A stretch of DNA of 64,000 bases from NCBI GenBank assembly GCA_017993835.1, contig JAGOLX010000009.1, positions 1-64,000 of the forward strand, written 5' to 3'. Under the pieces are notes generated by a model. That model did not search any database, was not told the DNA's origin, and saw only the letters and a program-made list of their open reading frames with translations. Source of the stretch: Phycisphaerae bacterium. GTDB taxonomy: Bacteria > Planctomycetota > Phycisphaerae > Sedimentisphaerales > Anaerobacaceae. Shown piece by piece: positions 25,025-30,871 of this stretch. A program made the translations under genes and the position numbers. How positions within the stretch are numbered: position 1 is the stretch's first letter; the number at the start of each line of letters is the position of its first letter.

Positions 25025-25320
25025 GTTCCTTCGCCTGACCATCAAAATCATAGTAACCTGTGCCTCAGATCCACGCAAACGCAAAAAGCTCCGTCATGTG
25101 CCCCTCAACTCCACTGTCCGAGCTTCGGCGAAACCCTCCGCCAGCGCAGATGATGGAGGGCTGTTCCTCCACATGTTCTGTGGTTTCCCTGGAAAATCCT
25201 TGCGTGGGGTGGCGAAAACCCTGTAACATGGGCGCAAGAAATGCGTCTTTACTGCGAGAGTGCCGTCCGCGAGGGCGGGTGTGCGCTTTGGTTGTCTTTC
25301 CCTGTTTGGGAGGCGCGATC

Positions 25321-26505
25321 ATGAGAGTGCGGATTCAGACGGGAATTGTGCAAGTCTTTGTTCTCGCGACTGTTATGGCCACAACGGCCTGGGCTCAGGG
25401 CGAGCAGTGGCTCCAATACCGCTCGGCTCGGGAGGCCCGCCAGATCGTCGGTGATGTGGGGTATGTCTACCGCCAGCTCGTCACTGCGAAGCCGGAGGGG
25501 GTCAAGCTGCCCGAATTCAAGGCTTCGCAGGTTTGGTTCCTGGACTGGAAGACGCCGATGACAGCTTCGGGCACCGTCTGGCTGGTCTTCGACAAGAGCA
25601 GTCCGAGCGGCCAGTACGACCGGCTGTACATCGACGGCAACGCCAACGGCGACCTGTCGGATGATTCGGTGCTCGAGCCGTACCAGCAGGATGGCAGCAG
25701 ATGCCTCTTCGGACCGGTGAAGGTCGTCTTCGACACCGCCGACGGCCCGATTACCTACCATTTGTCCATCGACTTCCGCGCATACAATTCGCAGCAGACC
25801 TATTGCCTGCTGTACTCGGCCGGATGGTACGAAGGCCCGGTCACGCTCGACGGCGTCAAGAAACACTGCACGCTGATCGACTACAACGTCAACGGGGTCT
25901 TCAACGACAAGTCCGTCGATGCCGAGCAGTGCGACCGCATTCGGATCGGCGAGGCCGGCGGGCGCGATACCCGCTACGTCGGCAACTTCATCGAGGTGGG
26001 GGACAAGCTGTATCGGCCCGAGATCGCCAAGGACGGCGCGTTCGTCATTCTGACGGAGGCCAAGGACGTGGCGTTCAGCACGGTCCGTGTGGCGGAGAAC
26101 ATCACGTCCCTCGGCGCCGGGGGCGTCAACGGCCTGTTCCTCTGCAAGCCGGACAAGGGGGTCGTGAAGCTGCCGATCGGCGACTATCGGATCGAACACT
26201 GGAGCATCACGAGGAATGACGACAAGGGAGGCCGCTGGGAATTGCGGGCTGATTCCTCCGCTTCGAGCACGGCCTTCACGGTCGCGACCGACGGGCAGAA
26301 GGAACTCCCGTTCGGCGAGCCGATCTACTCGGTGGCCGAGTACACGCAGAGCGGCTCATTCTACAACTTCCGGCAGAGCCTCGAAGGTCGTCATGGGGAG
26401 CGGATCACGCTGACCCGCAACGGATCGCAGCCGGCGGCGCCGAAGTTGCGAATCCGCAGTCGCGACGGAGCTTACGATCGGGCGCTAAGCTTCGAGTATG
26501 GGTGA
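25321..26505 (+). CDS. Secreted protein, N-terminal part of a UGA-interrupted frame
   Basis: 394 residues up to the UGA at 26503-26505. A signal peptide (IVQVFVLATVMATTAWAQG) is followed by an all-beta secreted region of unknown family. Two Asp/Asn-rich loops, DGNANGDLSDD and DYNVNGVFNDKS, resemble calcium-binding loops. The last residues, LRIRSRDGAYDRALSFEYG, stop in the middle of what looks like a beta domain. The same frame continues after the UGA as GGTCSLRWPEPKDVSKPF and stays open to 28308. The start at 25321 has GGAGG upstream. I therefore read this as the first 394 residues of one 995-residue protein with selenocysteine at 395, or a gene with a nonsense mutation. Function unknown. Confidence 0.75.
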   Translation: MRVRIQTGIVQVFVLATVMATTAWAQGEQWLQYRSAREARQIVGDVGYVYRQLVTAKPEGVKLPEFKASQVWFLDWKTPMTASGTVWLVFDKSSPSGQYDRLYIDGNANGDLSDDSVLEPYQQDGSRCLFGPVKVVFDTADGPITYHLSIDFRAYNSQQTYCLLYSAGWYEGPVTLDGVKKHCTLIDYNVNGVFNDKSVDAEQCDRIRIGEAGGRDTRYVGNFIEVGDKLYRPEIAKDGAFVILTEAKDVAFSTVRVAENITSLGAGGVNGLFLCKPDKGVVKLPIGDYRIEHWSITRNDDKGGRWELRADSSASSTAFTVATDGQKELPFGEPIYSVAEYTQSGSFYNFRQSLEGRHGERITLTRNGSQPAAPKLRIRSRDGAYDRALSFEYG

Positions 26506-26536
26506 GGCGGCACCTGCTCGCTCCGGTGGCCGGAGC
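26503..26536 (+). promoter_or_regulatory. Candidate bacterial SECIS: in-frame UGA with downstream hairpin
   Basis: The UGA is followed 14 bases later by a perfect 7-bp stem GCTCCGG/CCGGAGC (26520-26526 and 26530-26536) with loop TGG. Loop bases are 22-24 nucleotides after the UGA. Bacterial SECIS elements lie directly downstream of UGA with an apical loop at about 16-37 nucleotides and a G in its first two positions; this hairpin meets these rules. Confidence 0.5.
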
Positions 26537-28308
26537 CCAAAGATGTCAGCAAACCGTTCATCGCAACCGTCGAGTTGACCGGTCCGTTCAGGATTCTGGC
26601 TCGGCAGGTGTGGATCAAGGGGGACGACCGCAGAGCGCCCACGACAGGCGGCGAGATCCCGTCCAAGGCTGTCCAGGCCAGCAGCAGTGACGAAGGATCC
26701 GATGTCGCCAATCTGACCAATCACAGCGGCCTGGCCAACCGCGATGCGGATGGGCTCGAAGAGCACAGCGTGAATCCCGCCCATATGTGGCGCTGTGCCA
26801 AGGGCGATGCCAATCGCTGGATCGAGTTCGATCTCGGCCAGGTCCAATCGGTCGGCGTGATCTGCCTGTTCAACTACAATGACGGTTGGCTCACGAGCCG
26901 TGGCGTCGGCAAGATGGATATCTCCGTCTGGACGCAGGAAGCCGGCTGGCAGAAGATCCGCGACGATCTGCCCATCGAGCAGGCTCAGGGCAGCGACGAC
27001 TATGACGAGCCCATGTTCGTGAAGCTCGATGGAGTCAAGGCGCAGAAGGTCCGCTTCGACGATCTCGCGAGTTCCGGCGATCCTGACTTCGTCGGTCTGA
27101 GCGAGGTTCAGTTCTTCCGGCCTCGCGGTCCGCAGGCAAGCCGACCCGGACCGTCGGATGGCGCGACGGGCGTGGCGGCCGGTGTTCTGGAGTTGACTTG
27201 GATTGCCGGCGAGGGCGCGCAGACCCACCGAGTCTACCTGGGCACGAGTCCCGACGCCCTTGCGTCGCTCGGCAGAATCGACCGTGTCGGCGCCAAGGTC
27301 TCGCAACTGGACCATAACAAGAAGTACTTCTGGCGTATTGACGAGGTCCTCGCGGATGGCTCCGTCGCAGGCGGCCAGGTGTGGAACTTCAGCACGGGCG
27401 GTTTCGAAGCCTGGTGGAAGCTGGACGAGGCGGACGGGACGAGGATCGCGGACAGCTCGGGCAATGGGCGCGATGCCACGATTCACGGGAATCCCGTCTG
27501 GCAACCTGCGGGCGGCCGGGTCCGCGGTGCGTTGCAGTTCGACGGTGTGGACGACTTCGCGGACACCGGCTGGACGCCCAACCTGCCGGTTTGGACTGTG
27601 GCCGCATGGGTCAAGAGTCCTGCGGCGCCGACCAGGCCGGTGGCAAGCGGCCCGGTGCACGCCGAGAGGAATTTCCAGATCAACTGGAACCACGGCAGCG
27701 ACGGGTGGCTTGGCGCCGTCGGGATCTGCGTTGCGGGCGAGTGGTATTCCGCGCCCTTCGGCGACTTGCAGGCCGACACCTGGTATCACCTCGCGGGCAC
27801 CTATGACGGCGAGAACCTGAAAGCCTACCGGGATGGCGTCCTGATCACGGACAATTCCAATCCCTCGGGCAGTCCCGACGTGGAATCTGCGACACTGATA
27901 TTCGGCAGGCACGCCACGGCGGAAAATGCCTTTTTCGCAGGCACGATTGACGAGGTCTGCATCTTTGCCTATGCCCTGGACGCCGACGAGGTGAAAATCC
28001 TCGCCTCCGGAAAGGAGCCGTCGGCGGTGGCCGGGCACGTGGCGCCGGGGACGCCGCACCTGTTGCAGGCGACGCTGGCGGAGCCGACCCAGCCCGCACC
28101 CCAGACGCCATCTGCGGCGCAGGCCCAAGCCGCGACGCAGACTTCGCCTGTCGATTCGACCGCCAGCGGTCCCGTTTCTGCGAAACCGGATGATCCGCCG
28201 CGAGCGTCGCTCCGCGTGGGCGTCAGCCTGATTTCGATCGTGGTCATTCTCGCAGTGGTGGGCGCGATCGTGTGGGTTTCGACCGTGGGCGGGCGGAGAG
28301 TGGTGTAG
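26506..28308 (+). CDS. LamG-domain protein, C-terminal part of a UGA-interrupted frame
   Basis: 600 codons open in the same frame as the preceding gene. It begins GGTCSLRWPEP directly after the UGA and finishes the beta domain (FIATVELTGPFRI). A discoidin-like domain follows (GLEEHSVNPAHMWRC, NRWIEFDLGQVQSVGVICLF, LSEVQFFRP). Next come a fibronectin-like segment (HRVYLGTSPDALASL, KYFWRIDEV), a LamG/concanavalin-like domain (WWKLDEADGTRIADSSGNGR, FDGVDDFAD, YHLAGTYDGENLKAYRDG, GTIDEVCIFAYAL), a Pro/Ala/Thr-rich linker and a final membrane helix (SLISIVVILAVVGAIVWVS). If translated alone it could begin at TTG 26575, but that site has no Shine-Dalgarno and no signal peptide follows, although the domains are of secreted type. 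This argues for UGA decoding or a recent nonsense mutation. Confidence 0.7.
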   Translation, partial: GGTCSLRWPEPKDVSKPFIATVELTGPFRILARQVWIKGDDRRAPTTGGEIPSKAVQASSSDEGSDVANLTNHSGLANRDADGLEEHSVNPAHMWRCAKGDANRWIEFDLGQVQSVGVICLFNYNDGWLTSRGVGKMDISVWTQEAGWQKIRDDLPIEQAQGSDDYDEPMFVKLDGVKAQKVRFDDLASSGDPDFVGLSEVQFFRPRGPQASRPGPSDGATGVAAGVLELTWIAGEGAQTHRVYLGTSPDALASLGRIDRVGAKVSQLDHNKKYFWRIDEVLADGSVAGGQVWNFSTGGFEAWWKLDEADGTRIADSSGNGRDATIHGNPVWQPAGGRVRGALQFDGVDDFADTGWTPNLPVWTVAAWVKSPAAPTRPVASGPVHAERNFQINWNHGSDGWLGAVGICVAGEWYSAPFGDLQADTWYHLAGTYDGENLKAYRDGVLITDNSNPSGSPDVESATLIFGRHATAENAFFAGTIDEVCIFAYALDADEVKILASGKEPSAVAGHVAPGTPHLLQATLAEPTQPAPQTPSAAQAQAATQTSPVDSTASGPVSAKPDDPPRASLRVGVSLISIVVILAVVGAIVWVSTVGGRRVV

Positions 28309-28360: not shown

Positions 28361-30871
28361 ATGCGCACGAAGAACCTCCTGGTGCTTTCGTTGGTTACGT
28401 TCTCCTTGCTGGTCCTGAGCGGCGCGGTCCTCGCCAACGAGAGTTCCGTCCCGGGAGTCCCCCAGATCTCCTTCAAGGGCAGGGTGCTCGACCACCAGGG
28501 CCAACCCCTCTCGGACGTGAAGGTGGCATTGTACGAGTTGCGGTTTGCGCGGGGTGAGGATTTGCCCAGAGCGGAACTTGTCCGAGAGGCGACGACCGGG
28601 TCGGACGGCGCATTTGGGTTCACGCGCGACAAGGAGTCGCCGGGCGAGAGGCAGGGTTCGATTGTCGCCTGGAAGAAAGGGCTGGCTTTGGGCTGGACTG
28701 TCTGGGAGATGCAGGAGGGCGACCAGCAGTCCGACATCATGCTGGGCGAGCCCAGGGAACTGTCGGGCGTTATCGTCGATGAAGGCGGCACGCCCATCAT
28801 CGACGCGGAGGTCTCCATTGCGATCTCGATCGTCGGGACGCCACAGGACCGCAGGTACATAACGTATTTCGTGGCACCTCACCTGCTGACGGTCAGGACC
28901 GACAGCGCGGGACGTTTTGTCTTTCCGAATCTTCCGGGGGAGGCGACGTGCGAACTGCTTGCCAGCAAGCCCGGGCGGGCGACCACCTGCACCCTCGACC
29001 CCACAAACAATCGCGGTGAGAAGTTCCAGTTCTCCCCAGGCCAGAGCGGCATCAGAGTCACTCTGCCCGTCGAGTCGAGGATCGAGGGGATGGTGATCGA
29101 GAAGGCCGGCGGTAAGCCCATCGCGGGCGTGACCGTCACTGCCCAGCCTGCCCAGCGGGGTTTTCCGTTCACCATCGAGCCCGGTACGTCGGCCCAGGAT
29201 GGCACGTTCTTCATGGGCGGCCTGTCGACGGACAGTTACACGCTGCAACTGGCGTCCCGCGAGGACAAGGTCGCGGAATGGGTGGCCGAGCCGGTGAGAG
29301 TGAGTCTCAAGGCGGGGGAGACGGTACGCGATGTCCGCCTGGCCCTCTCGAAAGGGGCCTTCGTCGAGGTCGCCGTCAAGGAACAGGCCGGCGGCAAGCC
29401 CGTCGGGCAGGTCAACATCAATGTCCATGACCCAGCGAGCGGCCAACGATTCAGCGGAGTGACCGACGAGAACGGGTCTGTCCGCATCCGCCTTCCCGCG
29501 GGCAGCTATCAGATCAACAGTCTCTACAAGGAAGGGTACACTCGTTCCGAGGAGAGTGTCGAGTTCACCGTTGCCGATGGCCAGACGAAGCAGGTCGAAC
29601 TAACGCTCAGCGGCCTGCCGTCCGTCCGCGGCGTGGTGTGCGACGATGCGGGCCAGCCACTGGGGGGCGCGACCGTGCAGATCCTCCCCGGCGGGTGGGG
29701 CAAGGACGTGGTCTCCGATGCCGGAGGGAAATTTGAAGCCAGTTGGGACCCGCAGGGGCGGTCTTCAGACAGGACGGTCTTCTACATCCTTGGACGGCAT
29801 GTGGATCGCAATCTCGCTGTAGCCCAGCCTGTGGAGGAGCAGGGCACGCAGATCACGCTGAAGCTCCAGCCGGCCGCCACGCTGGCAGGGCGGGTCGTGG
29901 ACCCCAATGGCAAGGGGATCGAGAACGCCCAGTTGCTCGTCATGCTCCGCGCCTCCAGTTGGGGCGCATCCTTCCTGCCGCGCAATAGCAGTGTCCGGAC
30001 GAATGCCCAGGGACAGTTCGAGGTGAGTGCGATCCCGCCGGAACAGCGGTACAACCTCACTGCCATGGCAGACGGTTACGGCCAGACGCAGAACAACCTC
30101 AATGAGGATCAGGTCGTCGCCGGTCGGGTCCAGACGGGAACGTTCACGCTGCCTGTCGCGAATCTGTCCGTGTCGGGCGTCGTCGTCGATTCGGAGGGCG
30201 AGCCGGTATCCGGCGCCAGTGTCTACTGCTATGGTGGCAACCAGGACAACCAGCCGAACCGCAATGTCCAGACAAGCGCGGACGGCAAGTTCACTCTCGA
30301 TCGCGTCTGCGCCGGACGCATTAGCATCAGCGCCAACACGCAGAGCGGCGGCGCCTACCTCCGCGGCTCGGTCCAGACCGAGGGCGGCGCCAAGGACGTG
30401 CAGATCGTTGTAAGCGAACGAAGTTCGGCCACCCGATATGTTCCACGATCGCCGACCAGGCTGATCGGCAAGCCCCTGCCCGATTTGAAGAGCGTGGGGA
30501 TCGATCTGCCTGCCGACGCGAACGACCGCATGATGCTGGTGTGCCTGTGGGACATGAACCAGAGACCCTCGCGTCACTGCATTGGGGAGATGATCCGTCG
30601 AGCTGCGGCGCTGAGCGAAAAGGGTGTGACGATCGTCGCGGTCCACGCCGCCAAGGCCGAAGAGGGGGCTCTGGAGAAATGGGTCGAGCAGAACAAGCCC
30701 CCGTTCCCGGTGGGATGCTTCACCGGCGACATTGAGAAGACGCTTCTCGATTGGGGAGCGGCCTCGCTGCCCCATCTGATCTTGACCGACAGGAAGCACA
30801 CGGTCGTTGCGGAAGGCTTCGGCTTGTCCGAGGAACTGGACCGGAAGGTCGAACAGGCATTGGCACGCTGA
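28361..30871 (+). CDS. Secreted carboxypeptidase-regulatory-repeat protein with redoxin-like C-terminus
   Basis: 836 residues. The signal peptide is LLVLSLVTFSLLVLSGAVLA. About seven carboxypeptidase-D-regulatory-like beta-sandwich repeats follow, each with a G-x-V-x-D-x-x-G-x-P core: KGRVLDHQGQPLSDV, SGVIVDEGGTPIIDA, RGVVCDDAGQPLGGA, AGRVVDPNGKGIENA, SGVVVDSEGEPVSGA and others. The last 130 residues form a thioredoxin/peroxiredoxin-like fold with WDMNQRPSRHCIGEM, KGVTIVAVHA and ASLPHLILTDRKH. Only one cysteine is left in the active-site helix (R-P-S-R-H-C), so classic CXXC chemistry is not expected. The start at 28361 has AGAGGA upstream. It lies 52 bases after the UGA-interrupted gene on the same strand, probably in one operon. 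Confidence 0.8.
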   Translation: MRTKNLLVLSLVTFSLLVLSGAVLANESSVPGVPQISFKGRVLDHQGQPLSDVKVALYELRFARGEDLPRAELVREATTGSDGAFGFTRDKESPGERQGSIVAWKKGLALGWTVWEMQEGDQQSDIMLGEPRELSGVIVDEGGTPIIDAEVSIAISIVGTPQDRRYITYFVAPHLLTVRTDSAGRFVFPNLPGEATCELLASKPGRATTCTLDPTNNRGEKFQFSPGQSGIRVTLPVESRIEGMVIEKAGGKPIAGVTVTAQPAQRGFPFTIEPGTSAQDGTFFMGGLSTDSYTLQLASREDKVAEWVAEPVRVSLKAGETVRDVRLALSKGAFVEVAVKEQAGGKPVGQVNINVHDPASGQRFSGVTDENGSVRIRLPAGSYQINSLYKEGYTRSEESVEFTVADGQTKQVELTLSGLPSVRGVVCDDAGQPLGGATVQILPGGWGKDVVSDAGGKFEASWDPQGRSSDRTVFYILGRHVDRNLAVAQPVEEQGTQITLKLQPAATLAGRVVDPNGKGIENAQLLVMLRASSWGASFLPRNSSVRTNAQGQFEVSAIPPEQRYNLTAMADGYGQTQNNLNEDQVVAGRVQTGTFTLPVANLSVSGVVVDSEGEPVSGASVYCYGGNQDNQPNRNVQTSADGKFTLDRVCAGRISISANTQSGGAYLRGSVQTEGGAKDVQIVVSERSSATRYVPRSPTRLIGKPLPDLKSVGIDLPADANDRMMLVCLWDMNQRPSRHCIGEMIRRAAALSEKGVTIVAVHAAKAEEGALEKWVEQNKPPFPVGCFTGDIEKTLLDWGAASLPHLILTDRKHTVVAEGFGLSEELDRKVEQALAR

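Follow-up and report, generated by a model that had tools for sequence, protein, structure and literature searches.

A candidate new selenoprotein family with a selenocysteine-bearing Ig-like domain in Planctomycetota and Verrucomicrobiota

The bacterial selenoprotein families known so far came to light, for the most part, through pairing of selenocysteine (Sec) proteins with cysteine (Cys) homologues or through known redox folds, and most of them have many Cys homologues. We describe here a gene that departs from this pattern. It lies at 25321-28308 on the plus strand of the window, the 64,000-nucleotide stretch (positions 1 to 64,000 of contig JAGOLX010000009.1, assembly GCA_017993835.1, Phycisphaerae bacterium) that was analysed. 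Its in-frame UGA at 26503 is very probably decoded as Sec, and its product falls in a new Sec-dependent family. An earlier note on this DNA had proposed a candidate new selenoprotein, and computation supports the proposal: the UGA is conserved, the hairpin after it covaries, the genome has complete sel machinery to which family genes are linked, and selection continues after the UGA. Selenoproteins decoded through a bacterial selenocysteine insertion sequence (bSECIS) share with this family the in-frame UGA, a 7-bp hairpin with a loop G, and selA, selB, selC and selD (PMC13188914). In contrast, the present family is nearly Sec-obligate, has 11 paralogues in one genome, and is like immunoglobulin (Ig) or FN3 domains rather than the thioredoxin fold. 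As the earlier note had supposed, a family of this type does not seem to be on record: none of the 119 prokaryotic families in a 2026 catalogue (PMC13188914) has this motif or domain. We found no earlier description in the literature, within a coverage that leaves out preprints and most subscription journals.

Two described families invite comparison. DUF1573 is an extracytoplasmic beta domain. DUF1573/OS_HP2 (PF07610, NF041425) is also a Sec family, and one member of ours has a sub-threshold match to it that spans the Sec region. However, its motif is UGC or UxC whereas ours is U-xxx-C, and we rejected a kinship between the two: the NF041425 match reaches 14 bits where the cut-off is 100, and a profile-profile comparison (hhalign) to DUF1573 sequences gives a probability of 0.3%. 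The other is the hypothetical selenoprotein DG (NF049953), whose GUxG pattern also fits the G-U-G-G found here, and which was reported, from Desulfosediminicola, together with Cys homologues (PMC12013277). NCBIfam returns nothing for the window protein at E up to 10, hence no match to NF049953, and this model is not among the NCBIfam matches of 32 and 46 members, its presence in the release being assumed in both cases. Planctomycete selenoproteins have been described (PMC4807772); the main text of that work names other families only, and its supplementary candidates may overlap with ours. The deep-Sep study (2025, PMC12013277) states that families without Cys homologues may be missed. The present family was probably overlooked because such homologues are almost absent from it. 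Previously uncatalogued, it has eleven copies in this genome, and relatives occur in numerous Planctomycetota and in some Verrucomicrobiota.

Conservation of the in-frame UGA

The TGA at 26503-26505 is the sole interruption of a frame of 995 codons, which ends with TAG, and corresponds to residue 395. The sequence and its translation thus agree with what the earlier note had described, namely a frame open apart from this codon and a Cys four residues after U (the U-GGT-C spacing). The surrounding motif is SFEYG-U-GGTCSLRW, with U395 and Cys399 (26515-26517).

Relatives share the frame and its single TGA. When 40 relatives were searched, several genomes proved to encode homologues of the N-terminal ~430 residues, and the matches that span the codon have one TGA at the same place. 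We then built a family profile from 20 rows covering the ~100-residue region around U, with U read as Cys. It has matches in 28 of 392 sampled genomes of the phylum, and 54 of the 56 matches contain exactly one TGA. Having Cys at the place of U, the profile favours Cys homologues, yet almost none appeared. The genome that contains the window encodes 11 family members, each with exactly one TGA. Outside the phylum, a sample of 289 Verrucomicrobiota genomes (the phylum of a 'Spartobacteria' record) yielded 6 members in 5 genomes, all with one TGA, and all five genomes have selA. There was no family match in a further sample of 398 genomes, drawn from the phylum to which a Clostridia metagenome-assembled genome belongs, a sample without a positive control.

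Across 69 distinct aligned members, the Sec codon is UGA in 67, and encodes Cys in one and Arg in another. The earlier note had named Trp, Arg or Gly at this position in homologues as evidence against Sec; the single Arg form (in L090) has CGG, on contig 186 of G090, and neighbours a UGA-bearing sister gene. The Cys form (L077 / L091) comes from genome G421, which is 99% complete and lacks selA. Its motif is QCCGNYRLSW: Cys stands for Sec, the Cys at +4 is gone, a new one is present at +1, and 2 of the 7 hairpin pairs are kept. It is the substitution expected in a lineage without Sec. G421 is the one clear case of Cys replacing Sec in an organism lacking the latter, and such forms are very rare. 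The possibility that TGA is a misread TGG, TGC or TGT, which had also been raised, is excluded because dozens of genomes, each assembled on its own, have TGA at this codon.

Substitution rates tell the same on the two sides of the codon. Between the window gene and its relative in G005, dN/dS is 0.177/0.757 (~0.23) before the UGA and 0.153/0.692 (~0.22) after it, and pairs involving G008 behave alike. These ratios indicate that purifying selection is equal on both sides and that translation continues past the UGA.

A hairpin shared across the family

A 7-bp stem, GCTCCGG/CCGGAGC, closes a TGG loop at 26520-26536. Its position is as the earlier note had it, starting 14 bases past the TGA with the loop bases (UGG, 26527-26529) at +22 to +24; counting the U of UGA as 1, the hairpin occupies positions 18 to 34. 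The bacterial rule asks for a loop of 3 nt, a G in the first two loop positions and a spacing of 16-37 nt (PMC13188914), and the window hairpin agrees with it on all three counts. No Rfam match was found within the window.

The comparison of 43 sites gives a clear signal. There, 92.0% of the hairpin cells are paired, versus 70.5% in shuffled alignments, double changes occur in five of the seven stem pairs, and stem covariation is 0.512, versus 0.127 when shuffled and at most 0.132 when slid. Because the hairpin sits in coding sequence, we also used a fixed-register null in which each site was recoded synonymously according to the codon usage of its own gene (1000 recodings). A total of 289 stem pairs was present in 45 sites, versus 171 expected under recoding (sd 7.7, maximum 194), a difference that is not to be read as a strict probability because the sites are related. 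Codon choice around the near-invariant Trp follows what the stem demands: the preceding Ser is TCG in 30 of 33 cases and the following Arg is CGA in 30 of 32. Even the residues flanking this Trp covary across the stem (Y-S-W-R-V, L-S-W-R-E, L-R-W-P-E), because the SECIS stem requires pairing. Among the divergent members without SWR, several form different stems, also perfect, at roughly this position, e.g. AGTGCGTT-TGG-AACGCACT in G073.

Other tests gave modest signals: whole-segment folding energy has a median z of -0.6, and free-register stems have a mean length of 7.2, versus 5.4 for synonymous codons. These tests are weak because GC-rich codons fold anyway, and the fixed-register test is the informative one. 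The case for a real hairpin is a comparative one, argued from the shared UGA codon and the covariation.

Selenocysteine machinery and the reading of the UGA

The genome (6.37 Mb in 115 contigs, 99% complete) encodes all four components that the earlier note had suggested looking for. They are found on a single contig, C115, and all score above cut-off: selA (544 bits), selB (355), selD (368) and selC/tRNA-Sec (76). Six of the 11 family members are on this contig, beside the sel genes. This linkage extends to other genomes, where family genes adjoin selA/selB (G071, G319, G059) or are found near selB (G024) or selD (G025, G026, G319). In the phylum sample, selA is present in 24 of the 28 family-bearing genomes, versus 17.3 expected (hypergeometric P 0.004); of the other 4, one is G421 and the remaining three are fragmented, with a completeness of 77-90%. 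Very probably, the cell's own SelA-SelB-tRNA(Sec)-SelD system reads the UGA at 26503 as Sec under the direction of the hairpin at 26520-26536.

Two observations weigh against decoding as Sec. When folded alone, the window hairpin is no more stable than shuffled sequences (z -0.70). In addition, G024, G090, G209 and G325 keep the UGA but show no selA; these assemblies are fragmented, with a completeness of 77-90%, and in G024 selB is found close to the family genes. The ordinary stability of the hairpin would suit a genuine stop that separates two polypeptides, and a mechanical listing of open reading frames (ORFs) does split the frame at this TGA. A stop, a sequencing error or a pseudogene is nevertheless very improbable: 67 of the 69 distinct members, from dozens of genomes and two phyla, have UGA at this very codon, the hairpin covaries, and purifying selection is of equal strength on both sides. 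Moreover, the UGA falls inside a single domain predicted by AlphaFold2, so that a stop would split the Ig-like domain mid-fold. We rejected these explanations on the grounds of conservation, covariation and selection.

An altered code or a suppressor tRNA might also let the UGA be read as Trp, Gly, Arg or Cys, and the existence of one Arg and one Cys form fits such a reading. It is hardly credible given the full and linked Sec machinery, including tRNA(Sec), and the loss of the SECIS hairpin in the Cys form. Furthermore, TGA terminates 11 of the 18 long ORFs of the window, as well as several family genes. Since it is the ordinary stop of most long window ORFs, we rejected wholesale reassignment of UGA.

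Contig C115 has a further gene group (L038:15965-17232 and L052:131-1507, L052:1613-2491 and L052:2724-4358) that encodes a double-cubane-cluster reductase (420 bits, above cut-off), another subunit related to it, its activase, and a SelD with a Cys-rich N-terminus and an AhpD-like C-terminus. In G025 and G026, the surroundings of selD show a similar-looking order. The reductase may be connected with the supply of selenium.

The Sec-bearing domain and its possible roles

The hallmark of the family is an Ig/FN3-like domain of ~100 residues with the motif (Y/F)G-U-GG(T)C-x-x-(S)W. In the window protein, alignments (A1, A3), the AlphaFold2 model and fold comparison place this 'YGU domain' at residues 329-431 (26305-26613). 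With Sec modelled as Cys, residues 25-431 are predicted to be almost all beta with a mean predicted local distance difference test (pLDDT) score of 92.3, and the Sec domain alone has a pLDDT of 87.5. The predicted model places U at a short inter-strand turn, and Cys399 opens the strand that follows. The nearest structures to the Sec domain are FN3, macroglobulin (MG) and other Ig-like sandwiches (best Z 7.9 and 6.9), where a Z below 8 may mean a common fold only; identities are 1-18% among the matches listed, whose entries are not described as selenoproteins. No Foldseek match with E <0.001 was obtained for the structure, and folds outside those listed are possible. The first 431 residues match no Pfam or NCBIfam family above cut-off and no sequence in the PDB; Pfam matches to MG2 and FlgD_ig are sub-threshold and concern single members. 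Membership in the thioredoxin-fold or peroxiredoxin families is not indicated, the model being all-beta and no such Pfam match being found.

The rest of the protein is of the secreted type. A Shine-Dalgarno-like GGGAGG (25308-25313, plus strand, as are all features given here) lies 7 bases before the ATG, and a signal-peptide-like N-terminus (residues 1-25, 25321-25395) can be recognised in the translation. It is followed by a family-specific all-beta ectodomain with a DGNANGDLSDD-type motif (25396-26262). Downstream of the UGA, Pfam identifies, as anticipated, an F5/8 type C (discoidin) domain at residues 485-587 (26773-27081) and a Laminin_G_3 domain at residues 758-892 (27592-27996), and the C-terminal membrane helix noted earlier is visible in the translation as a hydrophobic helix at approximately 28213-28280. 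The initial description as a secreted LamG/discoidin selenoprotein holds for the secreted character and for Sec lying in a beta domain; the Sec domain is, however, Ig-like and separate from the LamG/discoidin parts. Many members end ~40 residues after U, which makes the LamG/discoidin tail an add-on of some relatives. LamG/discoidin-like parts are found in the window gene, in G005, and partly in G008 and G322. Other attachments are leucine-rich repeats in G010, ankyrin-like repeats in G319, and several membrane helices in G024, G015 and G025 (all those outside the window identified by eye). Some members have nothing attached after the Sec domain.

These features suggest that the product of 25321-28308 is a membrane-tethered selenoprotein, which its signal peptide would export. 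The Sec domain is joined to the family-specific beta ectodomain; some members add LamG/discoidin, leucine-rich or ankyrin-like parts, or membrane parts with multiple helices. Placed on a tight inter-strand turn, the presumably exposed selenol could serve as a redox nucleophile outside the cytoplasm, and in the majority of members, the 52 of 67 that have a Cys at +4, it may reversibly form a selenenylsulfide with that residue. We propose tentatively, as the likeliest function though with less than even confidence, that the domain is an extracytoplasmic selenol/thiol redox module. The U395-C399 redox pair put forward earlier is plausible; it is not universal, as 13 of 67 members lack a Cys at +3 to +5, which weighs against a redox role. 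Such members, which keep U, include L133, L119, L120, L080, L075 and L083-L086; L081 and L086 have a Cys before U instead. Since members that have lost the Cys still retain U, the essential element would be the selenol itself, not the pair.

The neighbouring gene adds a second difficulty for a redox role. A protein with carboxypeptidase-regulatory repeats and a terminal redoxin-like domain is encoded 3' of the window gene (28361-30871), and the same order is found in G005, G322, G025 and G026. The redoxin-like nature of this domain, which the earlier note had pointed out, finds a weak Pfam match (AhpC-TSA, E 0.0025). However, DMNQRPSR replaces CxxC, which leaves a weak redox link and makes the neighbour unlikely as a conventional thiol partner. 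The redoxin-like domains of the neighbours have at most one Cys at the CxxC site, and none in G322. A redox partnership with the next gene was rejected on these grounds. The DMNQRPSR-type signature is conserved in the downstream neighbours of four other genomes. Further along the window, 34997-61679 is a run of consecutive plus-strand ORFs of similar lengths (~800-900 codons) that may be a tandem expansion.

An invariant U with an optional Cys, in an Ig-like rather than a thioredoxin fold, could also reflect putative capture of metals or metalloids. The Sec would be real, and the selenolate, with Cys399 if present, would trap a thiophilic ion (such as Hg, Cu, Cd or As) on the outside of the cell, without turnover. 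The secreted location and the many paralogues suit a binding role, and an ArsM-like methyltransferase is encoded near the sel genes of the genome. We consider metal capture unlikely, given that the alignments show no conserved His, Met or second Cys cluster near U and that no metal-resistance operon is consistently linked. Less likely still is that Sec is a site of covalent cross-linking, forming a selenenylsulfide with another surface protein, such as an envelope partner, to anchor or assemble a cell-surface layer. Adhesin-like partner domains (LamG, discoidin, leucine-rich repeats, dockerin-like motifs) and the members without a local Cys are compatible with it, but no partner with a conserved Cys was found, the Cys-poor redoxin-like domain of the neighbour included.

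In this family, selenocysteine is found not in the usual thioredoxin fold but in an Ig-like domain of a secreted protein. The residues that the SECIS stem constrains around the Trp also illustrate clearly how an RNA element can shape the sequence of a protein. Gene callers would be expected to truncate dozens of relatives at the UGA. On balance, we think that this modular, Sec-obligate Ig-like domain, present in many secreted and membrane proteins, may well be a main client of the Sec machinery in Planctomycetota and Verrucomicrobiota and a new class of selenol chemistry at the cell surface, which its few Cys homologues would have kept in the blind spot of surveys that rely on them.

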